Shown one piece after another: positions 35,995-63,888 of a stretch of DNA of 64,000 bases (positions are counted from its first letter, which is position 1; each line of letters begins with the position of its first letter). The DNA comes from Oncomelania hupensis (lineage: Eukaryota; Mollusca; Gastropoda; Littorinimorpha; Pomatiopsidae): contig CM072516.1 of the NCBI GenBank assembly GCA_036898135.1, positions 20,078,693 to 20,142,692 of the forward strand, read 5' to 3'. Under the pieces are notes generated by a model. That model was not told the DNA's origin. It was given only the letters and a program-made list of their open reading frames with translations, and searched no databases. The translations under genes were made by a program, and so were the position numbers.

Positions 35995-36055
35995 TATGAC
36001 GGCTTATTAGTGTCAAAAGTCCAGAATTTCAATTATAGTGTAGAATTTTAATTCC
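35995..36055 (+). repeat. Left terminal inverted repeat of the 13.6-kb transposon
   Basis: Matches the reverse complement of 49580-49638: 25 identical bases from TATGACGGC, then about 35 bases with a few substitutions, passing into AATTTTAATT-type sequence. Confidence 0.9.
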
Positions 36056-37105
36056 ATCTTTCAAAATTAAAATTCTGTCACAAAATTACAATTCTATAAA
36101 GCCACAATTAAAATTCTGTGAAGTCAAAATTAAAATTCTACAACAAAATTGAAATTATATTTCATAATTAAAATTCTATAATAGAATTAAAATTCTGATT
36201 TCCAGAATTACAATTCTGATTCACATAATTACAATTCTGATTTTTAGAATTAAAATTATCAATCGTAATTAAAATTACATGCTCTCATAATTTCAATTGT
36301 GACTTTTGACACAAGTAAAGCATGTAAAACGATATCAAAAGTTTAGACTTAAAATTATGATCTAGAATTACAATTTTACTTTAGAATTTTAATTCTATTA
36401 TTTTATAATTAAAATTCTATTCTAGAATTTTAATTCTATACTAGAATTTTAATTCTGAGATTCGAGAATTAAAATTCTACTCTTGAATTTTAATTATAAG
36501 ATTTGAGAATTAAAATTCTACTATAGAATTTTAATTCTAAGATTTGAGAATTAAAATTCTACTATATAATTTTAATTCTGAGATTCGAGAATTAAAATTC
36601 TACTCTAGAACTGTAATTTTGAGATTCGAGAATTAAAATTCTATTGTAGAATTTTAATTCTGAGATTCGAGAATTAAAATTCTACTCTAGAATTTTAATT
36701 CTAAGATTTGAGAATTAAAATTCTACTGTAGAATTTTAATTCTAAGATTTGAGAATTAAAATTCTACTATAAAATTTTAATTCTGAGATTCGAGAATTAC
36801 AATTCTACTCTAGAATTGTAATTTTGAGATTCGAGAATTAAAATTCTATTGTAGAATTTTAATTCTGAGATTCGAGAATTAAAATTCTACTTTAGAATTT
36901 TAATTCTGAGATTCGAGAATTACAATTCTACTATAGAATTTTAATTCTGAGATTCGAGAATTAAAATTCTACTCTAGAATTTTATTTCTGAGATTCGAGA
37001 ATTAAAATTCTACTCTGGAATTGTAATTTTGAGATTCGAGAATTAAAATTATAGAGTAGAATTTTAATTCTAGATCAGAATTAAAATTCCAGAGTAAAAT
37101 TTTAA
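36020..37105. repeat. Left palindromic array (41-bp period)
   Basis: From about 36440 to 37080 units repeat every 41 bp, roughly 15 times. Each contains AGAATTAAAATTCTA, three bases, and its reverse complement TAGAATTTTAATTCT, followed by a GAGATTCG spacer. The part at 36020-36440 has looser copies of AATTAAAATTCT. Each unit could fold into a 15-bp hairpin. Confidence 0.93.
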
Positions 37106-37261
37106 TTAGGGGCTTTTCTTCACTTCCACAAAAAAGAGTGTTGACTTTTAAGGTGAAGGTCGGCTTATCGGGGGTTGTTGTTCAACCTCGCCATAATATT
37201 AAACCACTTTCGCTATTAGTTTTCCGAGTTATTTACGGTATTGTACGCAATTTTGGGTGCC

Positions 37262-40200
37262 ATGGCTGCTAACTACGGATCCTGGACGCTCGAGGGATTG
37301 AAAGGCGAGTCGAGAAGGAGGAATGCTCGGATTTCTGGTAGAAAAGAGGAGCTGATTGAAAGGTGAGAGTGACACTGAGAGAGTACTGAGCTCTAGCCTT
37401 GTTCAGCCACAGGCTGCGAAGTCCGTAGGCCTCGCCTCACGGACTTCGCAACATATTATACTTAGTATGTAATTGAGGCGAGGCCTACGGACTTAGCAGC
37501 CTGTGGTTCAGCCTTGTTCAGTTGTTGCTTACACTAACAGTACAAAATTTGTAACAGTCATGATGCTAGTGCAGTATTGAAATATATTATTATAGTATTA
37601 TACGAATCACTTTTTATCGGCGTAAAATCACAGGGTTAATTTTCATACAGATTTTCACTCTTATTCGACTCCTATTCGACATTGGATCAATCTCACCTTT
37701 CACTCCACATTTCGTCCCCGTGTGTGAAGTTTTGAGACCTCACAGGATATATTGTAACAATAAGCGGTGAGTGTGCTTTGAACTTGAAAATCTGAGTTGG
37801 ATCCGTGTTTGCTTACAAATGTTCAAATTTGAGCTTTGGAGTCGAATACGAGTAAAAATCTGCATGAAACTTAACCCTGTGATTTGATGAAGTTTTGATA
37901 ACTTGTAAATTTTGTCTTAATGATAATCAATGTATTTACACAGAGGGCTACAGTTGTCCACAAAGGGATATTTCTCCTTATAATTAAGAAATCGTGTGTA
38001 GTAGAAAACAAAAGAGTTCAACAAAAGTGCACACAATGTATAGCATTGAGGATACCTTTTTTCCAAGTGTAATGCCTACTAATGGGATACGACAGTAAAG
38101 TTTTAAAAATTAATGCTTTAATTTTTAATTTTCAAGACTATTAAATAATATAAAATTCAAAGCATAGAAGATAAAAATGCATGCGCATACATTGCACAGC
38201 TAAAAGAAAACTAATCAGTATTTTATCATCTCTTTCCTTTGTTGCAGGCTGGAATCTTACGACCGAAATGCTGACTTTGGGCAGAACAACGCAGTCCAGC
38301 CAGAGTACCACATGCAGCTACCCACCCCAGCTGACTTTAAAGACATCCACGCTGACTTGGATGTTCCTCCCACCTCTGCCACGGATGTTTCAACTTATCT
38401 TCACACCGTCAGCAAAGAGCTTCACAATGATGAAGCTGCACAGCTCTACAAATGTAGGCACATAAACTTCATGCGTGTTTGTATCCAGGAAAATGCTACA
38501 TTTGTGAAAGGAGAGGTCAGGGCACAGTTTAAAACGAAAGTGACATACTGTGTGGACGTACAGCTGTGCAAGACTGGTGTCATTCTGCAGGCCCAGTGTG
38601 AATGCGCCAGTGGCATGGGTCCAACTGCCCATTGCAAGCACATAAGATGCATGCTGCTAGGCTTGCTGGACTTTGGAGAAAAGAGAACCGTGGACACACT
38701 GACAACTTGCACGCAAGTGTTGCAAACATTTCACCAGGCCAAAAAGCACCTTGGCTCTCCAATGAAGGCGGCATCATTACCAATTCATGACAAGAAACTG
38801 TTGGCGCATGATTTTGACCCGCGGCCACCTGCACTACGCAGCATGAGCTCTTACTCTGCATTCTTCTATGGCATCATGATGAACTCGGGTACAGTAATAC
38901 TAATAATAATACAGGATGCTATGTACGCGCCTTTCCCCAAATCAATCAGGATCAAAGCGCGGCGATCTGTACCAACATACACGCTCACCTGTCTCATCCA
39001 CCCTCACACACACACAACAAATACACATCCATCACTCAAACAGGTGGTGTAAAGGCAGGGAGATCGCTATTGGAAGACGGAAAGAAAATCGAAGAAAATT
39101 GTGAATTGACTGGGCACATCCAGTACCATTATTGAAGGGAGGGAGGAAACCGGAATGCCCGGAGAAAACCCTCGGTGATCTCAATGATCTTGTACCTAAG
39201 TCACATATGTTCACCCCTTGCGGGAATCGAACCCGCGACCTTCGGCATAGAAAACCGGCGACTTATCCACTGCGCCACGAGGTCACCCCGATCAGTATTA
39301 TCAGTAATCAGTATTATGCTACTGTAGTGTTCGTGTTGTTTTGCATTTTGTAGTTATTGATTTTGTTTTAAACAGTAAAAGTGTATTTTTGTTTATGTTA
39401 TGCATTGTCTGTGGATTTGTTCTAATAAATGGTTTTAAAGATATTGCCTTTTGGATATTAAAATATATATAGAACAATGGCAATTTTTTATTTAAAAAAA
39501 GAACTACAAGAAGTTTCAGACATTCTTTCCAGTTTATTATTAAACAAATGTTTGCCTATTACTATTAGAAAGCTTTTTCATCTTCTAAATAAAATAAATG
39601 TGCCAAATAATCCCTGACAAAATAAACAATTCACTCAAAAATAACTAAGGAGAGCAAATGAGATTCAAAGAATTCAATAAACTATATGTAAGATTTACTT
39701 GCTTGTTATTTGAAATGTCCTTTACTTTGCATTTATTGCATGTGAAATTGTTTGTTTGTATCTATGCACTCAGGTGTCTTCAGCGGCGCGCCGGTCATGC
39801 AGTGGTACCCCCCTGCCAACCCCTATGCAGTCTTGGCTGACCACACATACGCGGAAGGGAACCCAGTGGAGACCTTTTGGAAGAAAATAGGCCTTGCAGA
39901 CATGTCTGCTACGAAGAGGCAGGTCATTGAGAGAGACACGGCCGACTCCAAAAAGTTGTGGAGAGAAGAGAGGAGGAAGAGGCTATGTTCATCGGATTTT
40001 GGAATGCTATGCAAGCTGACAGATAGGGCAGACAAGGAGAGGTTATGCAAACGACTTGTTGATGCCCCACAGCCAACAAGTGCTGCACTCAGGCATGGAA
40101 GACAGTACGAAAGAGTCGCTATTGCCAAGTATGAGGAGGCAGCCCACTGCAAAACCTCAGCCTCTGGTCTTGTTGTCAGTGAGAGCCATCCCTACTTGGC

Positions 40201-40573
40201 CAGCACCCCAGATAGGCTGGTCTCTGATAGCAAGTTGTTAGAAGTCAAGTGTCCTTATGTAGCAAGAGAGCAAACCATTTCACCTGCCACAGTGCCATAT
40301 CTGGGAATGAAGAATGATCAGCTTTGTTTGAAGAAATCCCATGATTATTATTTTCTAGTGCAGGGCCAGATGTTTTGTTGTGGCGAGCAGATGAAAAGTG
40401 TTGACTTCGCTGTTTTCACTTTGCGAGACTTTGCCATCATTAATGTTGAACGTAATGACCAGTTCATTGGCAGCATGATTGAGAAGCTCAAGCATTTCTT
40501 TGAAAATCACTTCAAGCATGTTCTGCTAGAGAAGCTGTTTTTCAAGAAATACAGTGAGCATTTCTGTTGTTAA
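37262..40573 (+). CDS. SAP-SWIM-YqaJ nuclease gene of the transposon, three exons, 513 aa, intact
   Basis: Exons 37262-37362, 38248-38888 and 39774-40573, joined at AAG|GTGAG...TTGCAG and CGG|GTACAG...ACTCAG, with matching phases (2 then 1) and no stop. Residues about 8-36 form a SAP-like DNA-binding motif (WTLEGLKGESRRRN, SGRKEELIER). C151, C153, C163, H165 form a SWIM zinc finger. Residues about 330-470 are a YqaJ/lambda-exonuclease-type PD-(D/E)XK nuclease: D394 in STPDRL, E404 and K406 in LEVKCPY, and QGQ at 444-446. It likely acts in the nucleus on DNA ends during transposition or repair, but its role in these transposons is not settled. The gene points away from the left end; the transposase gene converges on it. 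Confidence 0.88.
37407..37506. repeat. 33-bp-arm hairpin in intron 1 of the nuclease gene
   Basis: 37407-37439 and 37474-37506 are inverse complements with one mismatch, separated by 34 bp. Could be a tiny fold-back element or an RNA hairpin. Confidence 0.85.
37625..37885. mobile_element. 261-bp MITE with about 48-bp inverted ends
   Basis: AAATCACAGGGTTAA at 37625 is matched in reverse complement at 37885, and the repeat runs to TTCGACTCC with a few mismatches. It lies in intron 1 of the nuclease gene. Target duplication not clear. Confidence 0.75.
38990..39290 (-). mobile_element. tRNA-derived SINE in intron 2 of the nuclease gene
   Basis: Minus strand from about 39288: box A-like TGGCGCAGTGGATA, then box B GGTTCGATTCC, followed by a body (CTTAGGTACAAG, TTTTCTCCGGGCATTCCGG) and a CA-rich tail near 39005. 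The same head and start of the body recur at 63900. It is a SINE, not a working tRNA. Confidence 0.8.
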
Positions 40574-40599
40574 TGAACTCATCAGGTTCAACATTTTTT

Positions 40600-41700
40600 A
40601 TTGTAAAATGTGTTGTATATCCTGTATATGTGGTAAACAGGACACCAACGCTTTCCATTCTCAAGTATAAAAACGACCAATTTTGACTGATATGTTTTTG
40701 TAAAATTATGTTTTAAAATGCATTTTATATAAAATCATAATCATCATTGGATTTCTTTAAACAGTGAAGATCATTCTTCATTTCCAAATACGAATACATC
40801 ATGTTGAGCAGTATACCTTTAGTAACGTTTGACTGAAAGTAATTCCCATGTTTAAAACAGCCATTACATTTTTGTTATTTTAGAACTTTAATAGAAAGAA
40901 GGAACAGACTGCTAATGTTCACTTGTGATGGTAGTGTACGCTTGGAAAAAGTGTCTCTTTTGAAGAGAATGCAGAAGAAACTGAAGTATTGGATTGATAT
41001 ACATACACTTTAAATCAAGTATTGATTATGTGTGCGAGTATACATGCATATGAGTGAGTGTGTGAACGCGCAAGTGGGTGTGTACGTGTGGAAGTGTTTC
41101 TTTTTTTTTAAGATAATGCAGAAGAAGCTGAAAGTATTGAATTGATATGTACATGCACCTTAAATCAAGTTATGATTGAGTGTGAGAACGAGCGTGTGTG
41201 TGCAAGCGTGTGTGAGTGCATAATCTACTCAACACGATATACTGAGATGCCTTACCTAGTCATCTGTTAGTGTCTATGAATGTTTGTGTTTGCTGCAAGT
41301 GTTCGTCATTTGATCGCCTGATATTGACAATTTGTGTGCAATATGTGCGTGTGTGTGCAGCTGATTTCTTAGGAGTTTGTGAGCATTGTTTTTCTGAGTT
41401 TGTATAAGTTAAGAATGGATGTGTGCGTGCGTTCCAATATGGTTCAAAGACTTTCTAACGTTAAACATCTTTAGAGCTCTGAAATTCATTATTATTTTCT
41501 TTCACCAAGTAATATTTGCTGTACTTCTGCATGTCATTTGGCAAAATAAATAACGGTTGTAATTATATATTTGAAAAAAAACATAAAAAAATTTTGGATA
41601 AGAGTTGAAATAAATAAATGTTGCAGGCTCTGAACACCATTAACCACTGTTTTTGTTGCCTAATAAAGTGAGTGTGTGTGTGTTTGATGTCTATGTTGTT
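40600..41700. other. Spacer between the convergent transposon genes
   Basis: Contains a duplicated ~75-bp block (about 40965-41040 and 41110-41185) and TG-rich stretches. No gene. Confidence 0.6.
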
Positions 41701-42349
41701 ATTACTTTCATAGGCATTTACATGTTTTATCAGCTTCACACACATATAAATAGTACATACTGTCACAGTCGAGTGAGTCTATCTTTATTCCACAAAAACA
41801 GGAAAATTTGCATAGCAAGTACCCTTCTACAACACTACCATTGCAGAAAAATTTGATTTACCAGATCTTTTAAATCTTGTTCGCCATAAACATACAACTG
41901 TAGTACATAAAATAAATTATTATTACTGTTGTTATACAATAAACATACAACTGTAGTAAATAAAATACATCATTATTACTGTTGTTATTCAATTATTATT
42001 ATTACAATACTTTCGTAGGCACATACACATGTTTTATCAGCTTCACACACATATAAATAGTACATACTGTCACAGTCGAGTCTATCTTTATTCCACAAAA
42101 ACTGGAAAATTTGCATAGCAACAGTATGCAAGTACAATATTTTCACTGATGCTAACATTAGCCCTTTTACAACACTACCAATTGTAAATTGCAGAAAGAT
42201 TTCATTTACCAGATCTTTTTAAAACTTGTTTCCCATAAACATACAACTGGAGTAAATAAAATACATTATTATTACTGTTGTTATTCAATTATTATTATTA
42301 CAATACTTTTGTAGGCACATAAACATGTTTTATCAGCTTCACACACATA

Positions 42350-44296
42350 TGTGTCGCCGCATGACAAAACCCGGCTAAAGACGCCAGGATTGATTCGCTG
42401 CTACAGCCGTAGAACACTAAAAATAGGCTACCCCATCAATTTTAAGATTGTTGCCTCTTTGTCTTTATTTAAGACTTTCCTTTAATATCCCAAACGGATT
42501 TTGTTAAAAATTACTAAAACATTGTTTATTTTGTTGATTTTGATAAGGGTGTTGATCACACCTTGCTAAAACAATGGCACTAATTGACCTCCGATACCCC
42601 AACTTTTCTTGTCTGACTATGAAGGGAAATCCCCAATGTGGATTGATATATAACGTCTGGGGAGTGAAAAGTCCCTATTGGTACTACTTTTTGGTACATA
42701 AAAGTGTGTGGCATATGAATTTTTCATGAAATTCCTTGTTCTGAAGCTTGCTTGTGACACAAGTTGTGTTCGAATGCGTCTCTTGCCGGGTCGTGAAAAA
42801 CGGAAGTGTTTCCTATAGATTTTCGACGATTTTTAGTTCAAAGTGAATTTTTTAATGTAGATAAACTCATCTTACATCTATTTCAAGTGTTTTCTTGCAA
42901 AATTTATGTTGCATTTGTTAGAAACACTTTGTCAAAGTAAGGGACCGATTCTTTTTGGAAACCGGAAGTGATGGCTTCGTCTCCAGCGTCAGTAGATGTG
43001 TCGTCTGCTAGAGTAGCTAGGGCCTTGAATCGACCCGGTTTTGCTTCTGAAGAGCTCCAAGACCTGCTTTCGGACTATTTTTATGATGGTGCCGGTGGGA
43101 ACTGTGATGAGGATTATGATTCTGACGAGCAGAAGCTTGATCCCGTTATTAAACGATACCATTTGTTTTCATTCAATGATTCATGTTTCGTAGGCCTCTT
43201 CGCTATAGGCGTGTCTTTAATAATCCGTCATTCTACTTGCATAGATTTAGGTAAAGGTTGAAAAGGCGATATCAGTGAAAGAATTACAGTAGGAGTGTGG
43301 AAAATATTTCAGTAGTATATTTTGTTGGGTGGGGGTGGGGTGGGGAGGGTTGAAAAGGTAAGTAGTCTGGCCTGCATTCAATATTACTAGCATGACAAGT
43401 TGACTATGTTCTCAGTATTTATTATTGTTGGTTTGTCTGTTTTAGGAAATGAACATGAGGACTATTTACCAAATTACTAGTAATTAGTATTTGCTTTGAT
43501 ATTTGTGTTTATTTACACTTTATAGAGCAAAATTACATGTTATTTTGATTTACACCTGTGACGCGACAGATTTATTCGACGTGCGGAAGGGAGTGGAGAA
43601 TCGGGGAATTATTAAAGCTTGATTATTAGGACTGAAAACTACCTAATGAAACTTTTGTTTTAGGTTTGTAATCTTTGTTTGACTATTTGAACTGAGCTGA
43701 TGTAGCTGCTTGCAATTAAACAAAAGATTACTTGACGGACGAGGGATTTAAGAGGGGGAAGGGGGGGGGCATTATGATAGAGTTTATTTTAGAAAAATGG
43801 TTGATTCAGGCCATGTTCTTGATATATTATGATGTGTTTGAGTTATTATAGACTTGCTAAACACTGGTTTTATTTCTAATATGTTTAAAAACACTATGCA
43901 TTATGGATGGGTACAGAATAAAATTGTGCGTACTGTTTTAATTTGTTTATGTTCAGTATTGTGTGGATGGTGTATAATGTGAATTTTCTCATCTTATTTC
44001 AACTCACTGCCATATTGCTGCCATCTTCCTGATTGTTTTGATACCAAATACATGCATGGAAAAATTCTGGTTGTGAAGTAATGATCATTTTACAATTTAA
44101 AACTTTGAAGGCAATTTCTGGAAATTAGCCCCCGAGAAAATAAAATATTAAAAAAAATCATAAAACATCAACCAATAAAGATAAAACAATTTGGTTTTTT
44201 GCATTTTGAAGATTATTTTTAGTACTTTGTTAATAAATAAATAAGTAATTTTTCATATTTTGACACTTTAGCCTGGTTTTCTCATGCTGCAACACA
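42350..44296. mobile_element. 1.95-kb DNA element with 33-bp imperfect inverted ends
   Basis: TGTGTCGCCGCATGACAAAA at the left matches the reverse complement of the right end (TGTGTTGCAGCATGAGAAAA), continuing to GGCTAAAG. The target site, known from the other repeat units, shows duplication of TA (or ATAT if the ends are drawn one base in). Probably non-autonomous; superfamily unassigned. Confidence 0.75.
42971..43258 (+). CDS. Candidate first exon inside the TA-type element
   Basis: ATG at 42971 begins MASSPASVDVSSARVARALN and runs into an acidic DYFYDGAGGNCDEDYDSDE stretch, after which it loses character. An acidic N-terminus is common in cut-and-paste transposases, so it may be the first exon of the element's lost transposase. 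The rest of any gene is absent. Confidence 0.3.
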
Positions 44297-45649
44297 TATA
44301 AATAATACATACTGTCACAGTCGAGTCTATCTTTATTCCACAAAAACTGGAAAATTTGCATAGCAACAGTATGCAAGTACAATATTTTCACTGATGCTTT
44401 GGACCTAAAGCAATAATAAATCAATCAATCAATCACTGATGCTAACATTAGCCCTTTTACAACGCTACCAATTGTAAATTGCAGAAAGATTTCATTTACC
44501 AGATCTTTTTAAACTTGTTTGCCATAAACATACAACTGTAGTTCATAAAATGAATTATTATTACTGTTGTTATTCAATTATTATTACAATAATAATTATC
44601 ATTATTAGTAGTACTTACAAGCATGTTAAGCATCACAAGATACAACATTCTGTCTAAAGTTGCACAAATGAAAGCATACTGATACTATGTGTCTTGAAAG
44701 AACAGTCTCAGAAGCACTTAAGACTAAGTATTTTGAAAGCACTTAAGACTAAGTATTTTGAATGTTTTCCTCTGGCCAATCAACCTTTCAATATGCACCC
44801 TCTTGCTGGAAATTTTGCGGTCTTTTAGCACCTGTTCATTGCTTAATCTGTTTTTCTTTGAAAAAATGCAGGAATGTTGACTTTGACATCTCTTGCAGCA
44901 AACAGGTCTTGGACATTAAATCCCTTATCAGCCATTATAGAGTCTCCGGGTTCGCACTTTTGTGGCAGATCAGATCTTTCCACGATCTGTCGATCAGATG
45001 TTGAACCTCCATATGTGGGTGAAACATAGGAAATAAGTCCTCCTGGTGTGCATCCTACCAACGTTTTAACAGTGTTTTTGTTCTTGTACATGCTAAATGT
45101 GGCCCTCTGTGCAATTGGATTGGAAGGTTTTTCTACTGGTATTTCTGTACCATCTAAAATAACTCTTGTGCTGGGGAATTTTCTCTGGAAGTCAATGGGA
45201 GCAAAATAATGCACAAGGTTGCTATCAGGCCATGTGTTCAGCTCCCCCCATTGTCCCGAGCAAAAATTGACCCAGGTTATAAAAATATTTTCTGCAGTAG
45301 AAACGGACACTCCGCACATTCGGGACAAAGGCAGATAATCAATATCTTGCCGCAGTTTAGCCAACATCAATAAGAATTGATTGCATGGCGAAATGCATAA
45401 AACACTTTCAGTGTGCAAATAAGTCAAACAATTCACCGCAGGGCCTAAACTTTAAAATACAGCGTGAAATTTTTCGTAGCTTTCCAGTCCTGTATAGTAA
45501 TGCAGGAGAGCTTTATCAAACTCTAGAGCATCGACAGACAGAAAAAAAGGTCTGCTGATGTTTCCTTGTGATGCCTGTGTGCGTCTGGATGTTGTCGTCT
45601 CTCTTTCTTCTGGGGTGAGTGTGGAGGGAGTCTCTGCTTGGCCTTCAAT

Positions 45650-45935
45650 CTCCTGAAACAAATTACAGGAACATATATATATATCATCTTGAGAAAGTAC
45701 AACATTCCACTACAGGATGGATCTGGAACTTTAACCTGTAAATATTCTGACTCATTTTCAATATTACATACTACTCTTGTTAGAAACCATGTTCAATCTC
45801 CTGAAACAAATTACAGGAACATATATCATCTTGAGGAAGGACAACATTCCACTACAGGATGGATCTGGAACTTTAGCCTGTAAACATTCTGACTCATTTT
45901 TAAGATTACATACTACTCTTGTTAGAAACCATATT
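45650..45935. repeat. Tandem duplication of about 140 bp at the intron 3/exon 4 border
   Basis: CCTGAAACAAATTACAGGAA occurs at 45652 and 45800, each followed by the same ~130 bp (ACAACATTCCACTACAGGAT). It copies the acceptor region of transposase exon 4 into the intron. Confidence 0.85.
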
Positions 45936-47089
45936 CTTTACATGTATGTGCAATTTGCTTCAAAAATATTACACAAGTATTACAACAAAAAATACAAAAT
46001 TAGAACATGTACAACCGTAATGATGATGACAATATTGGAATTTAGAGTTTACAATGTCTCTAGTACCATGGTACTCAATCCAGTGCAAGGAAACAGTTAC
46101 GAATAATTAAACATGTAGTGTCTCCTTTTCGACACCAGTAATAAAACAAAAATGTTCATGCTGCCGTCCAGGGTGCTTCAAATAGTGTTTCAAAAGGAGC
46201 ACATTTAATTTAATTAGAAAATCAAGTCAAAATGTTTGTATAGGTATCTTACCTGTTCCACCACAATGTTGGATCCTGTTTCAAGAACAGCCTCTGTACA
46301 ACTTGCATCTCCATTGGTAGATATCTCCACTTCCAATTCAGCCTCCAAACAGGGTTCAACAGAGTCAGATGGAGAGGCTCCAGTACTCATGACCTGTTAA
46401 AGTACCAAATGAAAATGTAAATTTTTACACAAATCAAACACACATAGGCTGCATGGCAGACATGTCTAACTATACACATGACACAAAAACAATCAAAACA
46501 AAAAGAAATTTAAAGTAAAATTGGCACGAGACAAGTCCTCAATAGTCTAGCAACCAATAAATTGAAAAATATAATTTAATAATAAAAATAAAATAAAGTA
46601 CATGTCGCCTTTGGTAGATAATCATACATGTGTGTATAAAACTCTACAGTGTCTACAAATAGCAAGGACACAGGAGTTCAGTCCAATATGGACCTTTTTA
46701 AGTAATAAATGAAAGGTATGGGTACACAGTCTGAAGCTCTGGCTCAGGATCACTGCCTGTACCCCTTTGCTGCTAGCATCTAGCGTAGAAGTACTAGAAG
46801 ACACCTCCCATGCAGACTATTACAGTATTAGTATTACATTAAATCCTAGATATATGTGTTAGGCACAATGAAGGATATCAAAATAAATGTCAACAAATTA
46901 CCTTTAATCGATCATGGTCTGCCATTCTTTGTTCACGAGTACTCACTGCAATGCTTCTGGGTTTCATCCATTGAAACACAGTGGGACAAGCACCAGGTTT
47001 CAGTCGTCGATTTTTTCGTGTCAAGCATCCTACCAGAAAACATACACAGGTTAATTAATAAGCTTTCATTATTGGCGAAGTACCACTGA

Positions 47090-48290
47090 ACAGATTTTCA
47101 ACCTCAGAATAATTGGTGAGAAATACCTACAGCACCAACAACATCTATATCATGTGTTCATAGACTTCAAGAAGGCGTTTGACCGAGTCTGGCATGCAGC
47201 TCTATGGGCAACAATGAAAGTGTACAACATCAGCCCTAAAATTATTGAAGTCATCAAAAGCCTGTATGACAAGGCTACCAGTGCAGTCCTCCACAACAGC
47301 GCCATCGGGAACTGGTTCAGAACAACAATCGGTGTGCGTCAAGGATGCCTACTCTCTCCAACACTCTTCAGTATCTTCCTAGAGCGCATCATGTCAGATG
47401 CTCTTGCAGACCATGAAGGCACAGTCAGCATAGGGGGTAGAGCAATCTCCAATCTTCGTTTTGCTGATGACATTGATGTATTGGCTGGAGAGGAACAAGA
47501 ACTTGAACAGCTGGTACAGAGGCTTGACACCACCTCCAGAGACTATGGAATGGAAATAAGTGCAGAGAAGACCAAAATGATGACCAACAACACCAATGGC
47601 ATCAATACGGACATCAAAGTCCAAGGCCAATCCCTCAACACAGTGCATAGCTTCAAATATTTAGGAGCCAGTGTATCAGGCAATGGGTCCCGACAGGAAG
47701 TCCTCTCCAGGATTGCACAAACTGCTGCCCTGACAAGGTTGAAGCCCATTTGGAAAGACAGGACCATCAGTCTACATTCCAAAGTAAGACAGCTGCGCTC
47801 CCTTGTCATCTCCATCTTCCTATATGCTTGCGAAGCATGGACCCTCACAGCAGATCTGCAACGAAGAATACAAAGCATGGAGATGAGGTGCTACAGAAAC
47901 TTCTGGGCATTTCCTATACCCAACACATCACCAACGATGAAGTCCGACAGATCATCACACACGCCATTGGACAACACGATGACCTGCTAACAGTGGTGAA
48001 GAAACGGAAACTCCGATGGTATGGCCATGTCACCAGATCATCAGGCCTTGCAAAGACTATTCTGCAAGGCACAGTGCAAGGAGGTAGAAGAAGAGGGAGG
48101 TAGAAGAAGAGGGAGACCGAAAAAGAGGTGGGAGGACAACATTCGAGAATGGACTGGTTTGACACTAAGCGAAGCCATCAGTGGCATCAGGCTGCTGAGG
48201 ACAGAGAAAGATGGCGTATGCTGGTTAAACGATCATCTGTGGTGCCCCTACGACCTTGTGGTTACGGGACAGGATAGGATAGGATAGGTC
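47090..48290 (+). pseudogene. 5'-truncated RTE-like LINE fragment in transposase intron 1
   Basis: Begins near 47095 and reads HVFIDFKKAFDRVWHAALW, GVRQGCLLSPTLFSIFLERI, LRFADDIDVLAGEE (motif C intact), EISAEKTKMM and FKYLGASVS. A frameshift near 47890 moves the C-terminus to another frame (LRWYGHVTRSS, RGRPKKRWEDNI). It ends in GGATA repeats at 48271-48288. The same family is at 62555-63888. It lies between transposase exons 1 and 2, in opposite orientation to them. Confidence 0.87.
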
Positions 48291-49154
48291 ATTATTGTGA
48301 ATATTGTTCATGCACATAAAACATAATTTATTGTGATGTACAGGTCAAAGGATATGGATAGTTTAAGAAAGGTGGGAAATGATCATCTACAAGTTTGCTC
48401 AATGCAATGGTGGAAATAAAAATAGCCTACACAGTTTGAGTTTGCCAAACAATGAAGCCTAGGCCTACATTATATCTGTGTGGTTGTAACTGAAACATAA
48501 CTAAAATCAAAATTACTATATACTTAGATGTGCCACTACATACAGCAGTCTACGGTCCTAAGCCAAGTTAGATCTCCTAATAACTGTGCACACCTTTTGA
48601 GAGTGTACAGAGTAATTTCATTTGTTGATCTGTTCAGTGTTCGGTCATGGGTGACTGTGTATAGAGGTCGATCGAGGTCGATCGACAAGCCCACCAAAAT
48701 ATTAATAAATACATACAAACAGCAAAATAGCCATAAAAGGTGGATGCTTTACAGCTGCAGTGAGCAAAGTATGATTCACTTACCAGTAGATGTTGGCGTA
48801 TCAAGGAAGTCTGTAGGCAGAAAATGCTTCGGGCATACAACACTGTTTTCTGTCGGAACAATGTTCCTCACGCTTCACTGCCTGAATCCACTTGGCTCGA
48901 AGGATCTTCGACTTTGGAAATTTATGACCTACGGGCGTATTACAGCCATATACTATGCATGTGTTTGAAGCGTGTGAGCAGCAAGGGCCTGTATCTGCCT
49001 CCACTCTCTGTAAAAGTTTCCATCTGGGTCGTCTGTTAGACGTCGGCTAATCCCGTTTACTACGTTTGTCGCTGCTTGAGCGAACTGATCCAGCGCCATT
49101 TTGCAACTGTGCCGAAACTACAATGCGCTGAGCTGCGCATGTGTGAGAAGATAG

Positions 49155-49620
49155 AATTTTAATTCTGGAGTAGAATTGTAATGTTGAAGTAGAATTTTAA
49201 TTATGGTCCATAATTTTAATTCTATCTTTTGACACTAATAAGCTGTGGAAAAGTGTATCAAAAGGCACAATTTTAATTGTGTCACACAATTAAAATTCTA
49301 TATCACAATTGAAATTATCAAAACCAACATTTTAATTATAAACTAGAATTTCAATTCTAATATAAAATTGTAATTGTGGGCTTTTGACACTAATAAGCTA
49401 CGGTGTCAAAAGTCAGAATTAAAATTCTGTTATAGAATTTCAATTCTGCTTTTGATAATTTCAATTTTGTTACACAATTTCAATTCTCGAACATAGAATT
49501 TTAATTATGGAAAGTAAAATTTTAATTCTGAAACATAGAATTTTAATTATGTAATAGAATTTTAATTTTGCCAAGACAGAATTAAAATTCTATACTAGAA
49601 TTAAAATTCTGGGCTTTTGA
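49155..49620. repeat. Right AT-rich palindromic region with repeated end motifs
   Basis: Many AGAATTTTAATT/AATTAAAATTCT elements in both orientations. CTTTTGACACTAATAAGC occurs at 49226, 49381 and, as part of the terminus, 49614. It is less regular than the left array. Confidence 0.9.
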
Positions 49621-49638
49621 CACTAATAAGCCGTCATA
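49580..49638 (-). repeat. Right terminal inverted repeat of the 13.6-kb transposon
   Basis: Reverse complement of the left end; last bases CCGTCATA, followed by the CAATAC duplication. Confidence 0.9.
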
Positions 49639-57258: not shown

Positions 57259-58763
57259 TGTCACGACCAAATGTTATCAGGTTTCGTTTTTTCATTGTTT
57301 GTGACTGGGAACACACTGGAGTGGCACATCCAGCTTGTTTTGTCAACCTTACTTTCACATTTTGTGTGTTCGATTTTGCTCACTAGGGTTTACGTGCTGC
57401 ATGGGTATTTTACCCGGATGTGACCGATTTCCAGCGTGCCATGAAGCGAGGTAGATTACTATTTTGTTTGCACCGAGGGCGAGTGCAGGGCATGTGGAAG
57501 CACAGCAAGCATTAGTTTTTCTTTATTCCAAGATGTTTTGGTTATGCCTACAGTTGCTAGTAATTGTACTAGAGGTTGACCGGCGAGGGAAAAATAGTGT
57601 AGTTTCAGGGTGAATAAACTACTAGACTTGGACTTCGGAGTAGGGATTCTCTGCAAGTCTGTGAAAGCCATTGTGGCGGTTTCTTCTTTTCCTGTGGTCG
57701 ACAAGGAGAAGCGTTGTTCTTTGAAGGTCATCGAGGGGCGACTCGGTCGTGGAGTCCGGTTTGGGCTACATGCATAAATCTGTTGAGGTAAGCGAGAGTG
57801 CTTGGTAATGCGTTGCTGTAAGCATTATTGTTATTCTCTTAGGTATTTTGTCACCCCACTTGTCCGTTTTGCCTCTGTTTTCACGTAGAAAGAATAGGTG
57901 TAAGCAGGGCGGGGGTGAGGGTGATGGAGCACTGATAGCAGTGTGAACATAAATGGACACATTTATTTATCTATTTATTTTGTTGGTTGGTTTGGTCGTT
58001 CTGTTGTTATGCCTAGCCTGTTTTTACGCCATCGTTTGTTGTCAAATTAGTATAGGCCAAATTTTACTAGTTGTATAAAGTTAGGTTTACTGTTACAGTT
58101 TACCGTCATTCATGCGTTGGGTATTGTGTGTGCATTTTTGCATTTCTCATTTTTGTTTTGATGGCACCCGACTTCCAAGGGAGTCGGGCATTTTTGCCTA
58201 ACTCCGGTGCTCTAGCTCATTTTGCTATGTTTCAGATTTGTTGTGGTTTTTGGTGAGTCTGACGGGGACACGGAGGTGAAGTCAATACTACATCAGCTAT
58301 CTCCACCTCGGACCAAGCTGGGCGTTCAAGCAGACCAACGTCCCACTACGACGACGTTGTTGCCAAGATTCTCAGCATAGACGGTGACGATTCTGCGCAT
58401 AGACGCTTGGTGAAGCTAAGTACTATTGTGTAATCTGAATGTAGCTGCGAGTGTGAGCACCATTCGGGGTGTCATCAAAGCTGAGACTAAAAAGAACTAT
58501 TGATTTTCGGAAGCAAAAACTAACTTTCGTTGGGGAATGTCGGTTCGTCTTATTCGCTTTAGTTTTTCTTTTAGTATTGAACCTTATGTGTAAATTTGTA
58601 ATTAAAAGAGAAGAAAGACACTACCTTGTGTTTGTTTTACTTTTTGGTCTTTTCTGCAACCTTTCATGCATTTCGCTACTTCCTACCCCTGTTCTAGGAA
58701 TGGGACGAGAGGGGAACATTTTTATTTCCTTAAGTTTATTTAGTTGTCGCCCCTCTCGTGACA
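57259..58763 (+). repeat. 3' LTR of family 2
   Basis: 1505 bp, uninterrupted. It gives the empty-site sequence for the nested 13.6-kb transposon (AATACTACATCAGC near 58285). Confidence 0.93.
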
Positions 58764-62554: not shown

Positions 62555-63888
62555 GACAAGACTCCTTGAGGAAGATGGAGATGACGAGGGAGCGCAGCAG
62601 ACTTACCTTGAAATTTACACACCGACTTAACCAAAGCTTTTTAGTCTTGAGGTTGGCTTCGCCGATGCTTCCTTTCCTTTCCTTTCACTGGAAGGAAGGG
62701 TGCAGGCAAGCTATAAATAGCCCGCAACAAGCAAAATGTGGAGGTACTAAACAGTGCTTCTCACATAGGCATTGAGCTTGTGTGTGTAGACTGATGGTCC
62801 TGTTTTTCCAAATTGGCTTCAACCTCGCCAGGGCAGCAGTTGTTTGTGCGATCCTGGAGAGGACTTCCTGTCGGGACCCATTGTCTGATACAATTACTCC
62901 TAAATATTTGAAGCTATGCACTGTGTTGAGGGACTGGCCTTGGACTTTGATGTCCGTGTTGATGTCATTGGTGTTGTTGGTCATCAGTTTGGTCTTCTCT
63001 GCACTTATTTCCATTCCATAGGCTCTGGAAGTGGTGTCAAGCCTTTGTACCAGCTGTTCAAGTTCTTGTTCCTCTCCAGCCAATCCATCAATGTCATCCG
63101 CAAAACGAAGGTTGGAGATTGATCTTCCCCTATGCTTACTGTGCTTTCGTAATCGGCAAGGGCATATGACATGATGCGCTCTAGGAAGATGTTGAAGAGT
63201 GTTGGAGAGAGTAGGCATCCCTGATACACACCGAATATTGTTCTGAACCAGTTTCCGATGGTGCTGTTGTGGAGGACTGCACTGGTAGCCTTGTCATACA
63301 GGCTTTTGATGACTTCAATAATTTTAGGGCTGATGTTTTACACTCTCATTGTTGCCCACAGAGCTGCATGCCAGACTCGGTCAAACACCTTTTTGTAGTC
63401 TACGAACACATTATATAGATGTTGATGGTGCTGTAGGTATTTTTTGCAGATTATTCTGTGGTTGAAAATCTGTTCAGTGGTGCATCGCCCTGCCCTGAAT
63501 CCTGCTTGTTCTTCATCTATGATTTGTTCAGCTTGGGGTTTCAACCTGTTGAGTATTATTTTGAGGAGGACCTTGCTAAGATGGATGATGAGGCTGATGG
63601 TGCGGTAATTTTCACATTCCTGAAGGTTACCTTTTTTGGGACGAGTGATGACAAGCGACTGGGTCCATTGTGTAGGCCACTCCCCACTCTGCCAGATCTT
63701 GTTACAGATAATGGTGAGTGCGTCAATCATCGCTTCTCTTCCTGCTTGAAGCATTTCCGCGGGTATGTTGTCCACTCCAGCTGACTTTCCCTTCTTCAGC
63801 GATTGCACTGCTGCTTCATCTTCTTCTCGAAGAATTGGGAGGATTTCTTCTTCTTCTCTTTTCTTAGGACATGCTAGAACTGATGGGT
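62555..63888 (-). pseudogene. RTE-like LINE reverse transcriptase fragment
   Basis: Minus strand, from 63808: KGKSAGVDNIPAEMLQ, ENYRTISLI, FRAGRCTTEQIF, VFVDYKKVFDRVWHAALW, then frameshifts, FADDIDGLAGEE, EISAEKTKLM and FKYLGVIVS. An unrelated piece of about 150 bp interrupts it near 62620-62770, after which RSLVISIFL resumes at 62560-62600. Same family as 47090-48290, here with more of the N-terminal RT. Truncated at both ends. Confidence 0.85.

Follow-up and report, generated by a model that had tools for sequence, protein, structure and literature searches.

An ISL2EU-type gene pair between IS3EU/GingerRoot-like ends in a 13.6-kb transposon of Oncomelania hupensis

To which group of transposons should an element be assigned when its genes point to one superfamily and its ends to another? 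The question is raised by a transposon in a 64,000-nucleotide stretch of the genome of the gastropod Oncomelania hupensis (assembly GCA_036898135.1, contig CM072516.1, positions 20,078,693 to 20,142,692 of the forward strand; hereafter the window), which carries a THAP-DDE transposase gene and a YqaJ nuclease gene. Superfamily assignment uses the duplication length and the termini, and in this element both conflict with the genes. The explanation that we moderately favour is a large non-autonomous transposon in which an ISL2EU gene pair is cargo between IS3EU/GingerRoot-like ends and is moved in trans. It is the most economical explanation of three things taken together, namely the ISL2EU genes, the IS3EU-like ends and duplication, and the damage that the copies share.

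The original prediction described a complete transposon of 13.6 kb with exact borders and an exact empty site, and both parts of this description were borne out within the window (Table 1). The outermost 25 bases of the element are perfect inverted repeats, TATGACGG...CCGTCATA, with the termini TA..TA, and the end-to-end identity of the inverted repeats falls inward (34/36, 56/60 and 74/100). The element sits in one long terminal repeat (LTR) of a retrotransposon, the second LTR of which (57259-58763) is uninterrupted. The flanks align to this second LTR with identities of 98.35% and 98.34%, and the two aligned pieces overlap by exactly 6 bases (58283-58288) at the empty site ...GAAGTCAATACTACATC...; since the flanks overlap by 6 bases in the intact LTR, the target-site duplication is CAATAC. 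Inside the terminal inverted repeats (TIRs) lie arrays of AATT palindromes. All 67 occurrences in the window of six AATTnnAATT 10-mers fall within the end zones 35995-37200 and 49100-49638. The AATT array and the module TTTTGACACTAATAAGC are candidate DNA-binding targets. The two genes are convergent and each starts just inside an array, as had been proposed, the ATG of the YqaJ gene lying 155 bp inside the left array and the first ATG of transposase exon 1 about 53 bp inside the right one.

We then searched the genome (1.45 Gb) for copies. The TIR pattern with at most 2 mismatches gave 2159 + 2126 sites, compared to 599 + 560 for the reversed control. Exact 16-base ends numbered at least 59, some of them belonging to the gene-less type of element described below. 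Both ends could be paired in 8 elements including that of the window, and the comparison of duplication lengths that had been suggested gave exact 6-bp duplications in all 8, with no common sequence (CAATAC, GTCGCA, GAAAAC, GATCTC, CTATGG, TGTGTG, AATTTC and CACCCC). Six of these elements measure 12.1, 13.6, 14.3, 14.3, 17.7 and 19 kb, and the other two 172 bp and 3.4 kb; for the 19-kb element (C1:160 Mb) the ends were fetched, and its size is the distance between them. The count omits single ends, a tandem array (L021) and a mismatching 29.6-kb pair of ends at C14 (L019, L020). The flanks of this last pair are reverse complements (AATTTC, GAAATT), which probably reflects an inverted duplication, and the 3.4-kb element in L019 was counted instead. 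The array L021 (C7:31736000-31738000) is satellite-like, is built around the TIR motif CTAATAAGCCGTCATATGTATGAC and seems to be a tandem repeat seeded by that motif. Exons of both genes are present in all five of the long copies read through (12-18 kb), and the prediction that the two genes travel together holds in these copies. That the gene block, the arrays and the LTR are separate insertions stacked by chance, and never formed one mobile unit, has a negligible probability. Other foreign pieces are indeed nested in the window copy (42351-44291 and 47055-48290), but the whole unit recurs end to end at five loci, each with a 6-bp duplication of its own, and these five copies refute such a stack.

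In order to describe the genes we used models predicted from the sequence, that of the transposase being a joined read-through with X at the breaks. The domain DDE_Tnp_4 scored 90 bits on the single exon and 114 bits on the joined model, THAP scored 51 bits, and HTH_Tnp_4 on the joined model reached 25.9, slightly below its cut-off of 27. The predicted YqaJ gene product has 513 amino acids and is uninterrupted in the window copy. This gene had been described as SAP-SWIM-YqaJ, and the Pfam scan supported two of the three domains, YqaJ (53 bits on the single exon, 51 bits on the joined model) and SAP (29 bits on the joined model). The scan of the joined model gave no match to SWIM, for which there is a CxC...CxH motif seen by eye. 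Homology search gave 754 relatives of the transposase. Among the best 120, which were listed, the named ones are from animals, largely molluscs (3 of the 120 from Littorina saxatilis), many others are environmental sequences, and the best full-length match listed is 55% identical. The YqaJ search gave 40 relatives from at least 7990 candidates scored, with animals again as the named sources and many environmental sequences. The viral contigs contained neither an exact match to the element end nor a relative of the DDE exon.

By their sequence, the two predicted genes are an ISL2EU-type pair. According to the available part of PMC4482050, ISL2EU elements carry a THAP-DDE transposase and a YqaJ gene, duplicate AT in the target A|AT|T, have ends that usually start with GG, and average about 4.8 kb when autonomous. 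The present element resembles ISL2EU, of the PHIS superfamily (Repbase/Han et al. 2015), in its THAP + HTH + DDE_4 transposase, its second YqaJ gene and its animal host; for the convergence of the two genes as an ISL2EU trait we rely on three related families of the same genome (B1, B2 and C, described below) rather than on that part of PMC4482050. It differs from ISL2EU in its unspecific 6-bp duplication, which is longer than the published AT, in line with the original prediction. It also has TATGACGG in place of GG at its ends, a length of 12-18 kb in the five copies read as opposed to about 4.8 kb, and a THAP domain whose halves lie in different frames in each of the 21 testable copies. Harbinger, Pangu and Nuwa make 3-bp duplications and Spy makes none, and no YqaJ gene is described for these groups in the available part of the same source (PMC4482050); the element differs from all four in having both a YqaJ second gene and a 6-bp duplication.

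The ends point elsewhere. According to the available portion of PMC10045372, IS3EU families, where complete, have TA..TA termini without exception and in most cases 6-bp duplications, GingerRoot families have 6-bp duplications and mostly TA..TA termini, and PHIS elements have no duplications or duplications of 1-4 bp. The likeness of our element to IS3EU/GingerRoot is in these two features, the TA..TA termini and the 6-bp duplications. It differs from them in that no integrase-type transposase was seen, five of the 15 listed open reading frames having been scanned without a match to an integrase. Fungal IS3EU elements, as presented in the available text of PMC12730594, have 6-bp duplications and TAYGG..CCRTA ends, and those that bear TET carry transposase and alpha-kinase genes, whereas our element begins with TATGA. 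That the match is confined to termini and duplication length, together with this TAYGG end as opposed to TATGA, would suit an origin of ends and arrays in a third group of transposons that is not related to IS3EU but also makes 6-bp duplications, again with the ISL2EU pair as cargo. We consider such an origin improbable, as it is to IS3EU/GingerRoot that TA..TA termini and 6-bp duplications are jointly ascribed in what was available of PMC10045372.

The original prediction implied a self-mobile element, which the data do not support. The window copy lacks the intact transposase gene of an autonomous element. Its breaks, which the original prediction did not mention, are, in order, THAP halves in different frames, an in-frame stop ahead of the HTH and the catalytic region, and then a frameshift and a 25-bp tandem duplication. 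The THAP break and one stop are common to copies at many sites. THAP exon 1 was read in 24 copies, 12 distinct ones (14 rows, two loci appearing twice) and 12 further loci, a 13th locus having given no match. The zinc-finger halves are out of frame in all 21 copies that hold both recognisably (11 + 10), and each of the remaining 3 has one THAP motif changed or lost. The same in-frame stop is present in the DDE exon of 14 of 19 copies, the other 5 having a glutamine codon there. One DDE frameshift is common to three copies (window, C4 and C10) that differ in their target duplications, and a second is common to four copies (L041, L043, L044 and L046). Since the same damage occurs in copies at different sites, the copies were probably made in trans; the simplest reading of the aligned copies is that the transposase damage is older than the spread of the family, which was probably mobilised from templates without a whole transposase. 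Rescue of the THAP frame by a small intron was rejected, as the sole GT..AG span visible by eye has a frame-incompatible length. Nine apparently open DDE exons were due to tblastn having passed through the shared stop. On the minus strand at 48950-49099, before the THAP part and in another frame, there is an open frame, MALDQFAQAATNVVNGISRR..., which is present in the aligned copies (interrupted in a few) and partly also in shortened derivatives. For the DDE part downstream of the stop, the ratio of nonsynonymous to synonymous differences per site (pN/pS) is 0.74 (18 copies, 153 pairs); because the young family B2 gives 0.86 and more divergent B1-type rows give 0.23, this ratio alone is not decisive.

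We examined the ends of families B2, B1 and C, to which the DDE exon is 76%, 72% and 61% identical in amino acids, respectively. All three have a convergent YqaJ gene, and no AATTnnAATT arrays were found in the stretches of them that were read. The borders are AAT|GAGCGC at both ends of B2, and AAT|GAGAG and GTCGACC|ATT in C; in B1 one end reads AAT|GGGCC and the other AAT|AGGCC (reverse strand). Those of C and the transposase-side border of B1 were obtained by copy comparison, and those of B2 and the other B1 end from one copy. An earlier placement of a B1 end, where two copies stop aligning, was dropped because a masked run was the cause. The AAT|...|ATT pattern of these borders, rather than an empty site, suggests that the three families make AT duplications. 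Inside most of the B1, B2 and C ends read we observed by eye a subterminal motif resembling CGCTAGG(T/G)G (L059, L061, L062, L068 and L070/L047/L071), a candidate THAP-binding site; it was not seen at the array/gene borders of the window element. In the DDE tree the four rows of the window family form one clade (99/99), within a 17-row radiation (98/96) that includes B1-type and B2 rows; these B1-type rows differ from the copies whose ends were read, and family C was left out.

The main rival is a true ISL2EU lineage in which the ends were replaced and the 2-bp AT duplications became unspecific 6-bp ones. An intact autonomous copy would then be lacking, have escaped sampling or have died out, and those observed would be non-autonomous derivatives. 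We regard this as possible but unlikely. In its favour, the gene pair and its convergent order match ISL2EU, both genes are kept in 5 of 5 long copies read, the four family rows are one clade, and the gene-less elements compared that bear the family's own ends (one of 172 bp and, at C14, one of 3.4 kb) resemble shortened derivatives. It is opposed by the closeness of the DDE exon (76% and 72% identity) to families whose borders are of the AAT/ATT type, by the lack of an intact THAP domain in any of 21 testable copies, by the related TIRs that also bound gene-less elements of another type, and by the description of PHIS duplications cited above. The corresponding proposal of a PHIS/ISL2EU branch in which the strand-transfer spacing went from 2 to 6 bp, AT targeting was lost, the YqaJ partner was kept and long AATT-palindrome ends were gained is equally doubtful. 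If true, a PHIS branch with a 6-bp duplication would exceed the 4-bp maximum given in the available portion of PMC10045372, and the length of the duplication could shift inside one superfamily while the transposases are still about 76% identical. The earlier suggestion of a distinct lineage therefore stands in part: the pair is of ISL2EU type and the duplication differs, but ISL2EU genes between foreign ends are more likely, as termini and duplication match IS3EU/GingerRoot.

Returning to the ISL2EU pair as cargo, a transposase from another element, presumably IS3EU-like, would bind the TIRs and the TIR-like modules, cleave the element at its TA..TA termini and attach these to positions staggered by 6 bp. 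As the arrays are full of AATT and ISL2EU targets A|AT|T, an ISL2EU element may have landed in such an array, which would account for the capture of the gene pair, and may later have lost its own ends. Such a loss is possible, as the start of the gene block is roughly at the position expected for those ends.

Several observations weigh against this explanation. At the junctions of the gene block with the arrays we could make out no ISL2EU termini, and a simple nested insertion is not visible; an intact ISL2EU nested inside the arrays was accordingly rejected, no canonical ends being found at the array/gene borders. Both genes lie directly inward of the arrays, in an orderly convergent arrangement that looks native. 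An IS3EU/GingerRoot transposase with these ends was not found in a genome search with Pfam rve_3, in which one of 111 matches was fetched; the matches are mostly in long open frames, and the search is not discriminating. Among four gene-less relatives tested, two show no matching duplication. Gene conversion could also spread a lesion, unusual splicing or frameshifting may operate at the THAP break of the predicted gene model, and dead copies of a self-mobile family, when young, would likewise be expected to show weak constraint, as the value for B2 illustrates.

If the ISL2EU pair is indeed cargo, one superfamily spreads the gene pair of another as units of about 12-18 kb, a route by which YqaJ-type nuclease genes could pass between transposon groups. 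Among the papers listed on ISL2EU, IS3EU, YqaJ, THAP, GingerRoot and gene capture or chimeras, the titles and abstract openings seen contained no description of such an element.

The gene-less relatives in the same genome have a related (sister) TIR, TATGACGGCYTAYTAGCGCCAAAA, and are AATT-rich with internal TIR-like modules. Their existence counts in favour of the cargo explanation, as do two of the four tested, one of which (L002) has an exact 6-bp duplication while the other matches in 5 of 6 positions. For one variant of the sister end, which has 93 exact sites, no listed DDE match was seen by eye within 15 kb of a site, the matches compared being those from 150 of 530 candidates scored. 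The rve_3 match that was fetched as a possible IS3EU partner (L072, L073; C4:90.5 Mb) was rejected, as its frame, about 7 kb inside a sister TIR, reads by eye as LTR pol. A second rve_3 match of equal score (C4:86.3 Mb) has a sister TIR at a similar distance, perhaps through a shared nested insertion.

Table 1. Coordinates of the element and its parts in the window; exon limits of the transposase gene are predicted.
Feature	Start	End	Strand	Remarks
Target-site duplication, left copy	35989	35994	.	6 bp, CAATAC; from empty site in partner LTR
Whole element	35995	49638	.	13,644 bp, inserted in an LTR
Left TIR	35995	36019	+	25 bp, perfect
Left array of AATT palindromes	36020	37107	.	Periods about 19-41 bp; TIR-like module near 36304
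YqaJ gene, exon 1	37262	37362	+	SAP domain
YqaJ gene, exon 2	38248	38888	+	SWIM-like CxC...CxH (by eye)
YqaJ gene, exon 3	39774	40573	+	YqaJ nuclease domain
Transposase gene, last exon	44626	45652	-	HTH + DDE_4; in-frame stop, frameshift, 25-bp tandem duplication
Transposase gene, exon 3	46253	46393	-	From frame and splice signals
Transposase gene, exon 2	46902	47029	-	End of THAP domain
Transposase gene, exon 1	48784	49099	-	THAP zinc finger, halves in different frames
Right array of AATT palindromes	49152	49613	.	TIR-like modules near 49227 and 49382-49411
Right TIR	49614	49638	-	
Target-site duplication, right copy	49639	49644	.	6 bp, CAATAC; from empty site in partner LTR

The YqaJ gene is open in 2 of the 5 long copies (window and C10), has one stop in the C4 copy and is broken in both C1 copies. 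Compared to the window copy, the summed differences are 40 nonsynonymous and 9 synonymous, about 1.2 per site, in a hand addition of rows in which changes private to the window were counted once per copy. These differences and the DDE ratio above point to weak constraint, which counts in favour of the gene pair being cargo.

The piece at 42351-44291 is an insertion in the window copy alone, as the BLAST pieces of the 4 other long copies skip from 42350 or before to 44433. It has an 8-bp direct repeat, ACACATAT, on both sides (by eye), imperfect inverted ends and an open frame of 106 amino acids, and is probably a small DNA transposon that inserted into the larger one. The piece at 47055-48290, within a transposase intron, is a non-LTR reverse-transcriptase fragment with a GGATA-repeat tail; as it is common to all 5 long copies read, it was present before those copies spread. 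A similar piece lies inverted at 62836-63489, and another was seen by eye inside the gene-less relative L074.

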